This document shows positions 46,456-55,016 of a stretch of DNA of 64,000 nucleotides, one piece after another; the first letter of the stretch is position 1, and each line of letters begins with the position of its first letter. Origin of the DNA: Cycloclasticus sp. Its GTDB lineage: Bacteria > Pseudomonadota > Gammaproteobacteria > Methylococcales > Cycloclasticaceae. Where the stretch lies: contig NVUJ01000002.1 of the NCBI GenBank assembly GCA_002733135.1, forward strand, positions 124,001-188,000, read 5' to 3'. Under the pieces are notes generated by a model that had not been told where the DNA came from, ran no database searches, and saw only the letters and a list, made by a program, of their open reading frames with translations. The translations under genes were made by a program, and so were the position numbers.

Positions 46456-46494
46456 ATGAACAGACAATTTTCCATTGCGCCAATGATGGACTAG
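46456..46494 (+). pseudogene. dusA: Remnant of the native 5' end of dusA
   Basis: ATG AAC AGA CAA TTT TCC ATT GCG CCA ATG ATG GAC TAG encodes MNRQFSIAPMMD and then stops. DusA proteins commonly start in just this way and continue WTDRHCR. The same SIAPMMD coding sequence recurs inside the intact dusA at 49182, 2.7 kb away. I read this as the original dusA start, cut off by integration of the element described next. Confidence 0.85.
46471..46490 (+). repeat. Left attachment repeat (attL), copy of dusA 5' coding sequence
   Basis: TCCATTGCGCCAATGATGGA is identical to 49182-49201, and the next ten bases still match at most positions (CTAGACAGAC against TTGGACTGAC). It is in frame with the remnant start codon at 46456. 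Confidence 0.85.
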
Positions 46495-46580
46495 ACAGAC
46501 TGCTTTAATTAAGCTTTCGTTTTCAATGTCTTAGCTCAACTACAAGAAAAAATGACGCGAATAGGCGTACTAGATTGTTA

Positions 46581-46637
46581 CATAACCGTCGCATCAACCT
46601 GAATTAAAAGCTATTCCGGTTATGCTTTTTGTTAGCT
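46581..46637 (+). repeat. Degenerate recombination site before cassette 1
   Basis: CATAACCG (46581-46588) and CGGTTATG (46617-46624) form a perfect 8-bp inverted repeat just ahead of the cassette junction GTTAGCTG at 46631-46638. The left arm TAACCGTCGCATCAAC resembles the arms of the attC-like site at 47690. It may be the end of an earlier cassette or an attI-like or secondary insertion site. The 137 bases before the junction hold no gene. Confidence 0.35.
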
Positions 46638-46670
46638 GTAACTGAAGTTCTGGAGTATTTGGCCGAAAAC

Positions 46671-46700
46671 AACTATACTCTGATTAAAATAACAATAGTT
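46671..46700 (+). promoter_or_regulatory. Candidate promoter and operator of the Panacea gene
   Basis: AACTAT ... ATAGTT forms a 6-bp inverted repeat with an 18-base spacer and covers a TATACT -10-like element (46674-46679). AAGGA lies seven bases before the ATG at 46717. An operator overlapping the promoter would fit autoregulation by a toxin-antitoxin pair. The -35 is weak. Confidence 0.4.
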
Positions 46701-46716
46701 AACCTAAGGAAAAACA

Positions 46717-47184
46717 ATGACTTACAAAGCAATCGATATCGCAAATTGGTTTATTAGTCAATTCGACAAAGAATCAGGCGATGTAATCACTCATCTAAAG
46801 GTTCAAAAACTTCTATACTTTTCAGAGGCTTGGAGCCAAGTTCTGCTTGAAAAGGAATTGTTTCCCGAAGAAATGGAAGCATGGACTCATGGCCCTGTTG
46901 TAAGAGAAGTCTTTAATCAATTTAATAGCGCAGGCTGGCAGCCACTCAATGTTACCGAAGAAATAGTTAAATTTGATCAAGATGTTTCTAATGTGCTTTT
47001 ACAGGTATTGGAAGCTTACGGGGACATTTCAGCAAAGACACTTGAAGAAATGACTCATCAAGATCGGCCATGGAAAGATGCAAGAGGTTCTTTGCCGCTT
47101 GAGGCTAGATGTTCTGATATTATTAGCAAAAACTCTATTAAAGTATATTTCACCGAGAAATATAACGAAGCATTAAATGCCTAA
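46717..47184 (+). CDS. Panacea-domain (DUF4065, SocA-like) antitoxin candidate
   Basis: The 155-aa protein has the Panacea hallmarks: an N-terminal KAIDIANWFISQF, HLKVQKLLYFSEAWSQVLLEKELFPEEMEAWTHGPVV and a helical C-terminal half with ISAKTLEEMTHQDRPWKDAR. Panacea domains are known as versatile antitoxin modules that neutralise many unrelated toxins, and SocA is a proteolytic adaptor antitoxin of the same superfamily. Here the gene overlaps the next gene by eight bases and both sit inside one integron-like cassette with no other gene, which strongly suggests a two-gene toxin-antitoxin unit. The role of antitoxin is inferred from family and arrangement. Confidence 0.88.
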   Translation: MTYKAIDIANWFISQFDKESGDVITHLKVQKLLYFSEAWSQVLLEKELFPEEMEAWTHGPVVREVFNQFNSAGWQPLNVTEEIVKFDQDVSNVLLQVLEAYGDISAKTLEEMTHQDRPWKDARGSLPLEARCSDIISKNSIKVYFTEKYNEALNA

Positions 47185-47689
47185 AAATGCAAAAAAACGT
47201 CTTCCAAAAAATGCGATTAAAAATGAAGCTTCAGACTTATCTGTAAGAGCAAACCTTAAAGAAGTTAAAATAATAGGGCTAATTGCTAAAGAAATACAAG
47301 AAAACTCAACTCCTCTTAAATTGAATCCATATGTAGCACTGAAATATTATAAAAGCGATTGGCAGTGCTTCTCTGAATGGGAGTCTCAAGAGCTTAAAGA
47401 GTTTTCATCCTTCCTTAAAATACTCCAAAAACATAATTGGGAACAAGTATATAATACTGGTAGTAAAATTCCGAAACATGGGTTGGCGTATACTAAATAT
47501 GAAATTAATGACGTGAATTCAGAAGCTATTAGAAATAAACTAGCATTAGTAAAAAAGGAAATATCTGAAGACATTAATTTTTTTGAATTAAGAGTTAATC
47601 AAAATAAATTGAGAGTTCATGGGTTTCAATCTCAATCTGTATTTTTTCTAGTGGTTTTAGATAGAAATCACGAAGCATTTCCAATGTAA
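47177..47689 (+). CDS. Unrecognised protein, candidate toxin partner of the Panacea antitoxin
   Basis: I cannot assign a family to this 170-aa protein with confidence. The N-terminus is very basic (MPKNAKKRLPKNAIKN), the middle is mixed and Lys/Glu-rich (CFSEWESQELKEFSSFLKILQKHNWEQVYNTGSK), and the C-terminal strands read FFELRVNQNKLRVHGFQSQSV and FFLVVLDRNHEAFPM. The last block (beta strands with a conserved-looking LDxNH near the end) suggests a compact nuclease-like or RelE/HigB-like fold, but that is only an impression. The gene is AT-rich relative to the core genome, overlaps the Panacea gene by eight bases, and its stop is next to the attC-like site. No signal peptide or membrane segment is present. 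Confidence 0.7.
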   Translation: MPKNAKKRLPKNAIKNEASDLSVRANLKEVKIIGLIAKEIQENSTPLKLNPYVALKYYKSDWQCFSEWESQELKEFSSFLKILQKHNWEQVYNTGSKIPKHGLAYTKYEINDVNSEAIRNKLALVKKEISEDINFFELRVNQNKLRVHGFQSQSVFFLVVLDRNHEAFPM

Positions 47690-47789
47690 CAGCTAACAAG
47701 ACACATCCAACGGATCGCCATCAGCGTCACTTGTTTTGCTGTCGCAAAAACGCGCCACTGCTGTCAACCGCTGATGTGCGACGTTAGGC
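47690..47789 (+). repeat. Integron attC-like recombination site of cassette 1
   Basis: The site starts CAGCTAAC and ends GTTAGGC, a perfect GTTRRRY core. Its arms pair imperfectly (TAACAAGACACATC against the complement TAACGTCGCACATC), and inside it are the perfect repeats CATCAGCG/CGCTGATG (47719-47726/47769-47776) and TTTTGC/GCAAAA (47734-47739/47744-47749). Length of 100 bp is normal for attC. The start CAGCTAAC is the exact complement of the cassette's front GTTAGCTG at 46631, as expected for a cassette that was once circular. Confidence 0.82.
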
Positions 47790-48242
47790 TGCCGCAGTAG
47801 CCCATCCATTTTTAGTTTCTTCTAGCTTCATACCATTAGAATAGGTATCTCTATTGAATTGGCCTAGCCCCTCAATCAGGCTGCGAACAGGAGAGTTATC
47901 TGTGGCATATTCATGGTAAAGCATTCTGAGTACACGCTCTGCTGGCTTAGTAATTTTTACTCTATGGTTCTCCCACCCTCTAACTGAATTTTCACTAACT
48001 CCCAACAAATCTGCCAATTGAGATTGAGGCATATCTAGTTCTTTACGTAAAAAACGAATTTCAGCTCCGCTAAGTTGAGGTTTGTTTTTAACTAGGTTTA
48101 AACCAATAGCCTTATGCAAACCATCAACATTATGAATGGCTACACCTTGACCATAAGAAGTTTCTTTAATGTTATAGCCATTACGAAGCCATATTTTGCG
48201 TAAACCACAGCTTGTGTAATGGTACATTTTCTCTTTTTTCAT
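47784..48242 (-). CDS. Helix-turn-helix antitoxin-like protein (MqsA/HigA type)
   Basis: The 152-aa protein has an N-terminal part with YHYTSCGLRKIWLRNGYNI and a C-terminal Xre-type helix-turn-helix, LSGAEIRFLRKELDMPQSQLADLLGVSENSVRGWENHRVKITKPAERVLRMLY. Such proteins are usually the DNA-binding antitoxins of type II systems with DUF4258 or MqsR-like partners. The ATG at 48242 with GGAG nine bases upstream is preferred to the track's TTG at 48257. It starts four bases after the DUF4258 stop. The stop codon is the TAA on the minus strand inside the attC core GTTAGGC. Reverse orientation relative to attC is frequent for toxin-antitoxin cassettes. Confidence 0.85.
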   Translation of the reverse strand: MKKEKMYHYTSCGLRKIWLRNGYNIKETSYGQGVAIHNVDGLHKAIGLNLVKNKPQLSGAEIRFLRKELDMPQSQLADLLGVSENSVRGWENHRVKITKPAERVLRMLYHEYATDNSPVRSLIEGLGQFNRDTYSNGMKLEETKNGWATAAA

Positions 48243-48246
48243 AGGG

Positions 48247-48573
48247 CTATGCTCCAAAGACTGTAATAATTACAACAAAATTTCCTAATTCATCTTTTTC
48301 TAAAGCAGTAACGACTGCAATTATTTCTCCAGCAGACATTACCTCTATTTTCATTTCCATATTACCTTTAATGCTGAGAGCAGGACCCTCCACAATATGA
48401 CCATGAGTTAAGCATTTAAGAACTTGAGTTCTAGTGATTTTTCTAGTGCACATGCGTTTTTCAGCATGCTTAGTGAAAATAACCCTAGAACTATCCTTAG
48501 CTATTTTCTTTATGAGGTTTTTAGCCATCATAGGGGTAATATTGAAATCAATTATATTAGACTCTCTAGCCAA
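48247..48573 (-). CDS. DUF4258-domain protein, candidate toxin
   Basis: A small basic protein of 108 aa. The central block FTKHAEKRMCTRKITRTQVLKCLTHGHIVEGPALSIKGNMEMKIEV and the C-terminal EIIAVVTALEKDELGNFVVIITVFGA match the DUF4258 family, which is often paired with HTH antitoxins and is thought to resemble RelE/MqsR-type RNases. The HTH gene follows after four bases. The first residues (MARESNIIDFNITPMMAKN) begin at a TTG, and ATGs at 48531/48528 are alternative starts. No Shine-Dalgarno sequence is clear for either. A repeat ACCGT/ACGGT at 48601-48619 upstream may be an operator. Confidence 0.85.
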   Translation of the reverse strand: MARESNIIDFNITPMMAKNLIKKIAKDSSRVIFTKHAEKRMCTRKITRTQVLKCLTHGHIVEGPALSIKGNMEMKIEVMSAGEIIAVVTALEKDELGNFVVIITVFGA

Positions 48574-48731
48574 GCTTTATATCTCATGCTATCGTCATAT
48601 ACCGTTAATTATTGACGGTTTGAATGGAATATTCAAGTAATATTTTACTATTTAACTTGTTAGATGGTGATGAAAGGACTAATGAAAAGGCATAACTATA
48701 TTAAGAAAAACAGTATGTTATGGGTGGTTTT

Positions 48732-48755
48732 CAGCCTAACAAGACGCATCAAGTT
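48732..48755 (+). repeat. Left arm of a truncated attC at the end of cassette 2
   Basis: CAGCCTAACAAGACGCATCAA shares TAACAAGAC[A/G]CATC with the attC at 47690. Its start CAGCCTAAC is the exact complement of the front of cassette 2 (GTTAGGCTG at 47783-47791). The right arm is missing, and the sequence passes straight into the integrase fragment. Confidence 0.72.
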
Positions 48756-49047
48756 GGGCAATGTCACTATCCTTCAGTCGCAATAAATCGTATCGCTTAG
48801 ACCTTCCGGTTTTAAATTTATCTAAGTATTCAGCAATCAAATCACTAATGAATACCGGCTCAGACCTGCCGAAGACTTGCGATTCATGCAATTGCGCTTC
48901 ACGTTTACCAGCCCATGACTTAGCTAATTTATGTTGACGAAACGATTTGCTTTCTCGATGAACAATAACACCTTTTTGTTTAATCAAGATCTCAACGCGA
49001 TATGATACGCTACCGTTTTTTAGACGGCGGGTACGAATAGTAGCCAT
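48736..49047 (-). pseudogene. N-terminal fragment of a dusA-type tyrosine integrase
   Basis: The fragment of 103 codons starts MATIRTRRLKNGSVSYRVEILIKQKG with an ideal AAGGAG five to six bases upstream (track start at 49101 is not supported). It carries the Arm-DNA-binding domain (SFRQHKLAKSWAGKREAQL) and the beginning of the SAM-like core-binding domain (ISDLIAEYLDKF), then ends at ...AQLDASC-TAG. Complete integrases of this kind have about 300-350 residues, so the whole catalytic domain with R-H-R-Y is missing. The stop codon lies in the attC-like core GTTAGGC (minus strand), so the deletion joint is at or next to that site. Its position against the 5' end of dusA is the one expected for dusA-targeting integrases. 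Confidence 0.82.
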
Positions 49048-49075
49048 TTCTCTCCTTATGTAGTACGCCTTTTTT

Positions 49076-49104
49076 TTGGTAACGCAAATGGGCGTATTCA
49101 TAAT
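49076..49104 (+). promoter_or_regulatory. Candidate promoter of dusA brought by the element
   Basis: TTGGTA and CATAAT are separated by 17 bases and lie 18 bases before the dusA ATG. They are within the element and replace the original dusA control region, which is left behind at 46433-46455. The Shine-Dalgarno sequence at this start is weak. Confidence 0.5.
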
Positions 49105-49121
49105 GTATTAAACGACAAGAT

Positions 49122-50129
49122 ATGACGGTAAGTAAACAACAAGAATCCTTTAAAACAAAGGGAAAGCCTATAGGTACGCTATCCATTGCGCCAATGATGG
49201 ATTGGACTGACAAGCATTGCCGAGTTTTTCATCGTTTATTGTCGCCAAATGCATTGCTGTATACCGAAATGATCACGACGGGTGCGTTGAAGCATGGCGA
49301 TAAAGAGCGGTTTTTATCATTTAATGAAATTGAACAACCTCTCGCTTTGCAGTTAGGCGGCAGTAACCCAGCAGATATGGCGACATGCGCCGAACTTGCT
49401 GAGCATGCCGGCTTCAAAGAGGTGAATATTAATGTGGGTTGCCCAAGCGATCGTGTGCAAAATGGTCGTTTTGGAGCATGTTTAATGTCCGAGCCCGCGT
49501 TGGTTGCTGAGTGTGTTTCCGCTATGCTTGAAAAGGTTTCGATACCGATAACCATCAAAACTAGAACAGGGATTGATGACTTTGATTCGCAAGCGTTTTT
49601 GGTGGATTTCGTGGGCAAGACTGCCGAAGTAGGTTGTCGCACGTTTATAATCCATGCGCGAAAAGCAATTTTAAAAGGCTTGTCACCGAAAGAAAATAGA
49701 ACAATACCTGAACTTAATTACGATCGCGCATACACCGTTAAGAAGGAGTTCCCTGATTTAACCGTCATAGTAAATGGTGGGGTTAAGACGGTGGGTGATA
49801 TAGAACGACATTGGCAACATGTGGATGGTGTGATGATTGGGCGTGAGGCCTATCACAACCCATTCTTTTTAGCAGAAGCGGAACATCACCTTTTTTCACA
49901 ACCGTTAGTGGACAGAGTCGAGGTGTTGAATAATTATCTGCCCTATGTTGAAAGCGAATTGAGCAAAGGCGTGTCGTTGCAAAGTATTTCTAGGCACCTG
50001 TTAGGCTTATTTGCCGGACAGCCGATGGGTAAACATTGGCGCCGTTATTTAAGCGAGAATGCGCGTTTTAAACACTCTGGAACAGAGGTGTTATTAGCCG
50101 CCTTAGAGCAGATGAAACCTTACCAATAA
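49122..50129 (+). CDS. dusA: tRNA-dihydrouridine(20/20a) synthase DusA with replaced N-terminus
   Basis: DusA reduces uridines in the D-loop of tRNA using FMN and NADPH. The 335-aa protein has LSIAPMMDWTDKHCRVFHRLL, the FMN and catalytic region ALQLGGSNPADMATCAELAEHAGFKEVNINVGCPSDRVQNGRFGACLM with the active-site Cys, TIKTRTGIDDF, TFIIHARKAILKGLSPKENR and VMIGREAYHNPF. The first 20 residues (MTVSKQQESFKTKGKPIGTL) are unlike a typical DusA start and come from the inserted element. The core is complete, so the enzyme is probably active. The 20-bp repeat marks the joint. folE follows after 50 bases. Confidence 0.95.
   Translation: MTVSKQQESFKTKGKPIGTLSIAPMMDWTDKHCRVFHRLLSPNALLYTEMITTGALKHGDKERFLSFNEIEQPLALQLGGSNPADMATCAELAEHAGFKEVNINVGCPSDRVQNGRFGACLMSEPALVAECVSAMLEKVSIPITIKTRTGIDDFDSQAFLVDFVGKTAEVGCRTFIIHARKAILKGLSPKENRTIPELNYDRAYTVKKEFPDLTVIVNGGVKTVGDIERHWQHVDGVMIGREAYHNPFFLAEAEHHLFSQPLVDRVEVLNNYLPYVESELSKGVSLQSISRHLLGLFAGQPMGKHWRRYLSENARFKHSGTEVLLAALEQMKPYQ
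49182..49201 (+). repeat. Right attachment repeat (attR) within dusA
   Basis: Exact copy of the 20 bases at 46471-46490, located 60 bases inside the present dusA and coding for SIAPMMD. The recombination that inserted the element took place in or beside this segment. Confidence 0.85.
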
Positions 50130-53162: not shown

Positions 53163-55016
53163 ATGAAGAAGTTAGATAAAGCAAAAGCGCAACATATCTT
53201 AATCATTGAACATGACGAAGATCGTATGTCGGCACTCCAAAACCTTTTGTCAATTGGTGGTTATAGGAATTTAATTAGTGCGTCGAATCAGGACGAAGCA
53301 CATACACTTATCCGTTCGTTAAAAGCTAAGGTTGAAAAGATTGGCGCCATTTTATTGGCATTTGATTTGCCACAATGCGATATCTTTAAATTCAGTGAAG
53401 TGTTAACAACGTTGGATGGTCATGATGCCATTCCATTAATATTCTTAACGGATAAATCGACAAGAATTGATGAAGAATTGATGACGAGATGTCATCGTGC
53501 CAATGCGGCGACTATAATACATCAGCCTGTCGAAGGTGGTGATGTTGTGCCCATCATTGATTTAGCACTCGCGCTTAAAAGCGAACGTGATGATCGTATA
53601 GCGAATGAAGAAAAACTAGTGCGAGAGCTTTCAGAAAAACGAATTATGGAGGCTAGATTGCAGTACCTAGTCTCGCACGATGAATTAACTGGCCTGTCGA
53701 ATAGAAGCGGTCTTGAGAAAACGTTGGAATTTGCGATTTTAAGCTGTACCAACTTTAAACAACGCGGCGCATTGCTAGATATTGATTTAGACCAGTTTCA
53801 GGTGGTTAATGATATCGAAGGTCACGCGATAGGCGACCGTTTATTGATTGAAATAGCGTCATTAATTCAAAAGACCTTAGAAGAAGATGCTTTTGTTTCT
53901 CGTGTGGGCTCAAATTTATTTCAAGTTTTTCTGAGCAAAGTAACGCAAAATCAAGCGTTAGATATTGCAGAACACCTAAGGTTAACGATTGATGATTTTG
54001 ATTTTAAACCGAATGACACGGTATATAACGTTTCGGCAAGTATTGGGGTGGCGATTTTAGCGCCACTTGAACGGATTAAACAACCTAGTGAAATCATGTC
54101 ACGAGCACATCATGCCTGTTATACAGCTAAGACCTTAGGACGAAACAGGATTAGTTTATTCGAAGGTGATAATGATCATCTTACAGGTTTAAGAAATGAT
54201 GCGAAGTGGGTGCCATTAATACGCAAAGCGTTAAAAGAAGACGCTTTTCAATTGGTTTTCCAACCCGTTGTGCAAATATCAGATGGTTACGTTGCACATT
54301 ATGAAACATTACTAAGAATGGTTGGTGAGGGCGGTGAGCTGATAAGCCCAATGGATTTCATTCCTGTAGCGGAACGTATGGGTCTTATCCATCATATTGA
54401 CTTGTGGGTTGTCTCACACGCAATTGATTATATTTCGGCGTTGCCTAAAGAAAGTGAAAGCATTGCTTTCACAATAAATTTATCTAGTCACGCACTGCAA
54501 GGTGATTACTTATTACCAATATTGAAGCAAAAATTAGAAACCACGTGGATTTCACCGTCAAGAATAACGTTCGAAATTACAGAAACCGCGGCCGTTATAG
54601 ATTTCGAAAAAACGCGCAAGATGGTAACTAAGATTCGTGCATTAGGATGCCGGTTCGCTCTTGATGATTTTGGGGCGGGCTTTAGTTTGTTTAATTACAT
54701 TAAAAACTTCCCCGTTGACTATTTGAAAATTGATGGCCAATTTATCAATAACCTAGCAAATAATACATCTGACCAAGTGTTGGTTAAATCAATGATAGAT
54801 GTTGCGCATAGCTTGGGTAAAAAAGCTATTGCGGAATACGTGTCCGACCCTGAAATTTTAAATATATTAAAAGAGTTTGGTGTTGATTATGTTCAAGGGT
54901 TCTTGTTAGGGAAGCCGCAAATAGAATTATTAAACGAGCAATATATCGTCTTGAGTGATTTTAAAAGCGACCCCGTTGATATTAAAAAATTAATCACTAA
55001 AAAAAGCTATTTATGA
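53163..55016 (+). CDS. REC-GGDEF-EAL protein, probable c-di-GMP phosphodiesterase
   Basis: A 617-aa cytoplasmic signalling protein without membrane segments. A receiver-like domain (about 10-130, ILIIEHDEDRMSALQNLL, AILLAFDLPQCD) keeps the phospho-acceptor Asp but has Gln in place of the usual Lys (IIHQPV). A GGDEF domain (about 165-320) is degenerate: the signature reads VGSNLF. The EAL domain (about 350-595) keeps YETLLRM in place of EAL, NLS, ITFEITETAAV, ALDDFGAGFSLFNY, YLKIDGQFI and QGFLLGKP, which are enough for metal binding and c-di-GMP hydrolysis. I infer a phosphodiesterase whose upstream domains serve as regulators. No Shine-Dalgarno sequence precedes the ATG. Confidence 0.9.
   Translation: MKKLDKAKAQHILIIEHDEDRMSALQNLLSIGGYRNLISASNQDEAHTLIRSLKAKVEKIGAILLAFDLPQCDIFKFSEVLTTLDGHDAIPLIFLTDKSTRIDEELMTRCHRANAATIIHQPVEGGDVVPIIDLALALKSERDDRIANEEKLVRELSEKRIMEARLQYLVSHDELTGLSNRSGLEKTLEFAILSCTNFKQRGALLDIDLDQFQVVNDIEGHAIGDRLLIEIASLIQKTLEEDAFVSRVGSNLFQVFLSKVTQNQALDIAEHLRLTIDDFDFKPNDTVYNVSASIGVAILAPLERIKQPSEIMSRAHHACYTAKTLGRNRISLFEGDNDHLTGLRNDAKWVPLIRKALKEDAFQLVFQPVVQISDGYVAHYETLLRMVGEGGELISPMDFIPVAERMGLIHHIDLWVVSHAIDYISALPKESESIAFTINLSSHALQGDYLLPILKQKLETTWISPSRITFEITETAAVIDFEKTRKMVTKIRALGCRFALDDFGAGFSLFNYIKNFPVDYLKIDGQFINNLANNTSDQVLVKSMIDVAHSLGKKAIAEYVSDPEILNILKEFGVDYVQGFLLGKPQIELLNEQYIVLSDFKSDPVDIKKLITKKSYL

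Follow-up and report, generated by a model that had tools for sequence, protein, structure and literature searches.

An integrase gene truncated inside an attC site in a decayed, cassette-carrying dusA element of Cycloclasticus sp.

The remnant of a mobile element in the 5' end of dusA of Cycloclasticus sp. carries integron cassettes, and its integrase gene breaks off inside an attC site. We interpret the locus, with considerable confidence, as a dusA-specific island in decay whose cargo is a small integron cassette array without its own intI (CALIN), in which the truncation is the product of a microhomology deletion between the L'' box of one attC (attC2) and integrase codons 99–101. The truncation inside the attC is real, and at the level of sequence the locus displays att repeats, a donated dusA start, cassettes, half an attC and a truncated integrase (Table 1).

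The window, that is, the whole stretch of 64,000 nucleotides that was analysed (G000:C4:124001-188000), belongs to a 1.76-Mb draft genome of 24 contigs that is 83% complete. The element occupies 46471-49211 (2.7 kb), between oadB and dusA, and is bounded by a 30-nt direct repeat, of which no further copy occurs elsewhere in the window on either strand at ≥22/30. The interval singled out by the first-pass annotation, 48732-49047, covers the integrase fragment only; the element extends well beyond it and includes an additional, third attC, the short attC0 at 46580-46637. The native dusA start at 46456 is severed from the remainder of the gene, and the start of dusA is now at 49122, where a new N-terminus is encoded (MTVSKQQESFKTKGKPIGTL); from there the gene continues as a single open frame to 50129. 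Joining the flanks across the repeat gives MNRQFSIAPMMDWTDKHC, an intact dusA start. Uninterrupted dusA genes, starting with MNRQLSVAPMMDW or similar, are found in several genus-mates (L014, L015, L016 and L018), in which a 231-aa ORF of the window also lies upstream of the gene.

These features place the element with the dusA-specific (DAI) family: it is inserted at the 5' end of dusA between att sites that form imperfect direct repeats, it supplies an alternative dusA 5' end (native 46456, new 49122), and its integrase is homologous to DAI integrases and adjacent to dusA. The catalytic RHRH/Y residues of a tyrosine recombinase are absent, as the sequence past codon 101–102 is gone, and the element is a remnant and not an active member of the family. 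Other traces of dusA insertions were observed in the genus. In L017 (G001) and L050 (G017), dusA has an extended N-terminus (VTVSK/VTLSK) resembling the element-donated one, with roughly 500 bp of unassigned DNA up to oadB and no second att core; these regions may be older scars left by dusA elements. A second dusA mini-element in which no integrase was seen occupies 560-1600 of L053 (G015): its two dusA att cores lie ~986 bp apart, and it contains a 117-aa ORF followed by a gene for a HicA-type toxin (PF07927, E 1.3e-9). Elsewhere in the window, ARAGORN calls a tRNA-Phe with anticodon aaa at 53998-54096 on the minus strand, antisense within a long ORF (53163-55016), which is probably a false call.

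Table 1. Positions of the element's features within the window
Feature	Position	Strand	Basis
Native dusA 5' end (MNRQFSIAPMMD)	46456-46490	+	Matches dusA start MNRQLSVAPMMDW of element-free genus genomes, e.g. L018, L015, L016
attL copy of dusA attachment site	46471-46500	+	27/30 identical to 49182-49211
Probable left arm-type integrase site (AATAGGCGTACTAGAT)	46560-46575	+	Inverted 14/16 match to 49058-49073
attC0, short	46580-46637	+	R'' ACATAAC; last six bases of R' core in cassette 1
Gene cassette 1	46632-47783	+	SocA/Panacea and MAG6450-family proteins; start pairs with R'' of attC1
SocA/Panacea protein, cassette 1	46717-47184		PF13274, E 1.3e-17
MAG6450-family protein, cassette 1	47177-47689		NF046006, above cut-off
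attC1, complete	47691-47789	+	Bottom-strand hairpin, z −2.45; passes attC structural test
Gene cassette 2	47784-48740	+	DUF4258 and MqsA-like HTH proteins; start pairs with R'' of attC2
MqsA-like HTH protein, cassette 2	47784-48257	-	HTH_3; TIGR03830, E 6.6e-12, under its cut-off
DUF4258 protein, cassette 2	48247-48573	-	PF14076, E 2.4e-11
attC2, left half	48732-48753	+	R'' 48734-48740, spacer AAGA 48741-48744, L'' CGCATCAAG 48745-48753
N-terminal 103 codons of dusA-type tyrosine integrase, catalytic domain missing	48739-49047	-	Homology to full-length relatives
Deletion joint, inferred ~9-nt microhomology CGCATCAAG	48742-48753		attC2 L'' and integrase codons 99–101
Probable right arm-type integrase sites (TAGTACGCC, GGGCGTAT)	49058-49099		Motif also between int and dusA in L055, L058
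Element-donated dusA 5' end (MTVSKQQESFKTKGKPIGTLSIAPMMD)	49122-49201	+	Stands in for native start seen at 46456
attR copy of dusA attachment site	49182-49211	+	27/30 identical to 46471-46500

Inverted-repeat motifs at both ends of the element are probably arm-type integrase sites, judging from their arrangement and from their recurrence beside intact integrase genes. The inverted pair 46560-46575 and 49058-49073 reads AGGCGTACTA and TAGTACGCCT; a further copy, the third, lies near 49090. The TACGCC/GGCGTACT motif of the left site also precedes the intact dusA integrases of L055 and L058. Given the left arm-type site, the element seems to have kept its original left end at least as far as 46575, which is four bases before attC0. 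A displacement of the missing integrase 3' part to the left of the cassettes was considered and rejected, as there is no room for it: the gap between attL and attC0 is only 79 nt and holds the arm-type site.

Between these ends lie two complete attC sites and one half site with no intI ORF in the element, the composition of a CALIN. An R''–L''–loop–L'–R' hairpin ending in GTTRRRY is formed by attC1, and by attC0 with one departure, its R' (GTTAGCT) being one position off that consensus. In attC0, the L'' box GCAT(C)AACC pairs with L' GGTTATGC, leaving one extrahelical base, and the fold has a z of −1.9. Among the 765 GTTRR sites in the window, attC0 and attC1 were the only ones to pass the attC structural test, and attC0 was one of two to pass a stricter version applied to 1361 GTTR sites. 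No Rfam match was obtained. In another genome of the collection (G004), three dispersed ~100-bp sequences on different contigs (L068, L072 and L073) start with CTAACAAGGCGCATGAAGCGG and have attC-like left arms.

The start of a formerly circular cassette must be complementary to its own R''. The nine bases at the cassette starts, including the G of the preceding core, are GTTAGCTGT for cassette 1 and GTTAGGCTG for cassette 2, and in both cassettes all nine pair with the R'' of the attC at the far end. For cassette 2, this pairing runs from G47783 and involves the attC2 left arm, CAGCCTAAC; in addition, CTAACAAGACGCATC of attC2 matches the attC1 left arm at 14/15 positions. These 9/9 and 14/15 matches identify the attC2 arm as a real one. 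The other half of the site is missing: no GTTRR that could serve as the R' core occurs 45–150 nt downstream, no attC-like fold was found at attC2, and its loop, L' and R' are absent, so that it does not count as a complete attC. Exact copies of the arm in the genome collection were limited to six, all reading as chance sequence without an attC hairpin, and its 20-nt form had no match in viral contigs.

The two genes of each cassette are a probable toxin–antitoxin pair. The cassettes described here resemble the toxin–antitoxin cassettes of sedentary chromosomal integrons in that each has its own two-gene module, with one module in reverse orientation, but they lie outside an integron, in a dusA element, and their toxin role is putative. 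Cassette 2 is single-copy in the genome and was not found in relatives or plasmids, where only chance matches of 27–29 nt were obtained. A plausible source of the cassettes is the integron of the host or of the genus, to judge by the sequences at hand. The C-terminal part of an integron integrase lies at the very end of another contig of the genome (L035, G000:C19:18526-19073; 276 bits vs a cut-off of 265), where the gene is cut by the contig end and the cassette array beyond is absent from the assembly. Among the 17 other genomes of the genus, 12 have an integron integrase above the curated cut-off. Near one of these genes lies an attC-like stretch (L037:14382-14479) that shares 66% identity with attC1 over 100 bp.

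The integrase fragment starts at 49047, preceded by the Shine-Dalgarno sequence AAGGAGAG, and stops at a TAG (48736-48738) within GTTAGGC (48734-48740, minus strand), which is the R'' core of attC2. It is 50% identical over 101 aa to an integrase of G059 (E 1.1e-27), and 13 other genomes in the order have matches at E≤1e-14; there are also 78 matching phage records. Identity to the best full-length dusA integrases of the same order (G106, G059, G209 and others) is at most 52%. In 13 of 15 full-length relatives compared, a dusA att core lies directly upstream. The retained part is presumably the arm-binding domain. No second integrase match was found in this genome at E≤1, and searches of the genus, order, class, plasmids and phages, together with pattern scans of genomes and viruses, returned no relative above 60% identity.

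Aligned with the 15 full-length relatives, the fragment is collinear through …RLKDSDIAQLDA (…DIAQLDA) at codon 101 and then ends; codon 102 is S, as in seven of the relatives, and may belong to either parent, whereas nothing in the relatives corresponds to codon 103 or the stop. The first-pass description of a frame reading from a strong ribosome-binding site for about 100 codons and stopping inside GTTAGGC at the left arm of an attC was thus confirmed, and the alignment that it proposed sets the last homologous codon at 101. Its further statement, that the gene is cut exactly at an integron recombination site, holds in part: the joint is inside the attC left arm and not at the core. Codons 99, 100 and 101 (CTT GAT GCG; L99-D100-A101) fill exactly 48745-48753, the L'' of attC2, so that the integrase homology includes all of L'' and stops at the spacer, with 4 nt remaining before the R'' core. 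It therefore ends within the arm and in frame, neither well before it nor beyond it in another frame. The attC match spans the R'' core, the spacer and L'', overlaps the integrase by ~9 nt and leaves the breakpoint ambiguous within 48742-48753. The overlap is deduced on the integrase side from protein homology and on the attC side from sister attC sites, neither parent having been found. Because attC0 L'' shares CGCATCAA with attC2 L'', the native attC2 probably had an L'' of CGCATCAA, and the overlap plausibly predates the deletion. A search for a related strain with an undeleted element or a complete attC2, also proposed earlier, yielded neither: genus, order, class, plasmid and phage searches and genome and viral pattern scans gave integrases of ≤52% identity only.

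Two origins of the joint had been proposed at first pass. A simple deletion that removed the right arm of the attC together with the 3' part of the integrase gene fits the sequence. The other proposal invokes recombination by the integron integrase between the attC and a secondary site in the integrase gene; spelled out, attC2 would have exchanged with a secondary G^TT in the dusA integrase gene, and the distal part would then have been lost. The joint does lie in an attC, an integron integrase exists in the genome, and such enzymes are known to use secondary sites. IntI, however, exchanges strands at the G^TT of R', and a complete attC hairpin would remain beside the target, whereas L', the loop and R' are missing here and the overlap lies over L'', not at GTT. 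A cut in the R'' core instead (G^TTAGGC, minus strand) would need the AAGAC spacer to match attC1 by chance and the integrase gene to have read TCT TG at this point, where a TG-starting codon is present in 0 of the 15 relatives. As attC sites make up roughly a tenth of such an array, the location of the joint by itself is weak evidence for integron activity, and we regard recombination by IntI as very unlikely to account for the data.

Misassembly in this metagenome-derived genome, by which the attC array and a dusA integrase of other origin would have been linked, might be suspected in a draft of 24 contigs, where the position of the host integron at a contig end indicates that attC arrays may assemble poorly. 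Both att copies, the native dusA remnant, the donated start and the two-sided arm sites nevertheless add up to a single coherent element within a long contig, and cassette 2 is single-copy, which makes such an artefact highly improbable. We see only a slim chance that the fragment is a maintained short gene whose product only binds arm sites and would block or regulate the integrases that act on the element, with the attC arm supplying its stop. The frame is open over 103 codons behind a strong ribosome-binding site and the probable arm-type sites are kept at both ends; however, a deletion of recent date would equally leave the frame open, and genus, order and class searches found the truncated form in no second genome. 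The joint itself was likewise found in no other genome across the genome and viral collections, the genus, order and class, plasmids and phages. A broader proposal, which we consider very unlikely, is that dusA mini-elements with defective integrases recur in the genus and are maintained there. Such short, att-flanked carriers of toxin–antitoxin modules would be moved by integrases encoded by other dusA elements and could acquire cargo through attC arrays, among other routes. The element described here and the ~1-kb G015 element would then count as two examples, with the integrase N-terminal fragment serving as an arm-site binder.

Under the favoured microhomology deletion, the order of events that we infer is as follows. 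First, the element would have inserted itself at the 5' end of dusA and supplied that gene with a new start; its CALIN would have lain between the integrase gene and the left end of the element. Subsequently, the L'' box of attC2, the third attC, would have become joined to integrase codons 99–101 by a deletion via ~9 bp of shared sequence, with loss of the remainder of attC2, of the catalytic two thirds of the integrase and of whatever stood in between. In the undeleted parents, the integrase should then read CTTGATGCG at codons 99–101 and a complete attC2 should have an L'' reading CGCATCAAG. The present element would be unable to excise by itself; with its retained att cores and probable arm-type sites, it could in principle be mobilized by a related integrase acting in trans, and its toxin–antitoxin-like cassettes would favour retention.

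The element combines known kinds of systems. dusA-specific islands are inserted at the 5' end of dusA, have imperfect direct-repeat att sites and donate a dusA 5' end (Farrugia et al., 2015; PMC4482086). The element shares with these genomic islands and prophages the site of insertion, the att repeats, the donated start and an integrase of the same family beside dusA, and departs from them in the loss of the catalytic part of its integrase, in its small size of 2.7 kb and in carrying attC cassettes, arranged in an array, as cargo. The dusA-specific integrative mobilizable elements of Vibrio (PMC8409611) have the same site and integrase family, and there also a new dusA start restores the frame; they carry mobilization genes, an oriT and the excision factor RdfN, whereas no such ORF was recognized here. 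Like CALINs, including phage-borne ones (PMC9892861), the element has two complete attC sites and cassettes inside a mobile element with no adjacent integron integrase; unlike those CALINs, its third attC is halved by fusion to a foreign integrase gene, and its carrier is a dusA element. dusA goes unmentioned in the CALIN paper. The combination of integron cassettes with a dusA-specific element was not found in the open-access literature searched, in which dusA, integrase, gene cassette and attC occurred together in an unrelated review only.

The cassette-bearing dusA element is thus a new example combining known kinds. It also illustrates that a joint inside an attC need not mean integron recombination, and that the end of homology must be checked, at the G^TT point vs a non-exchanging arm. 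Otherwise, it is an ordinary decayed mobile element, with which integron cassettes riding in a dusA-specific element are now documented.
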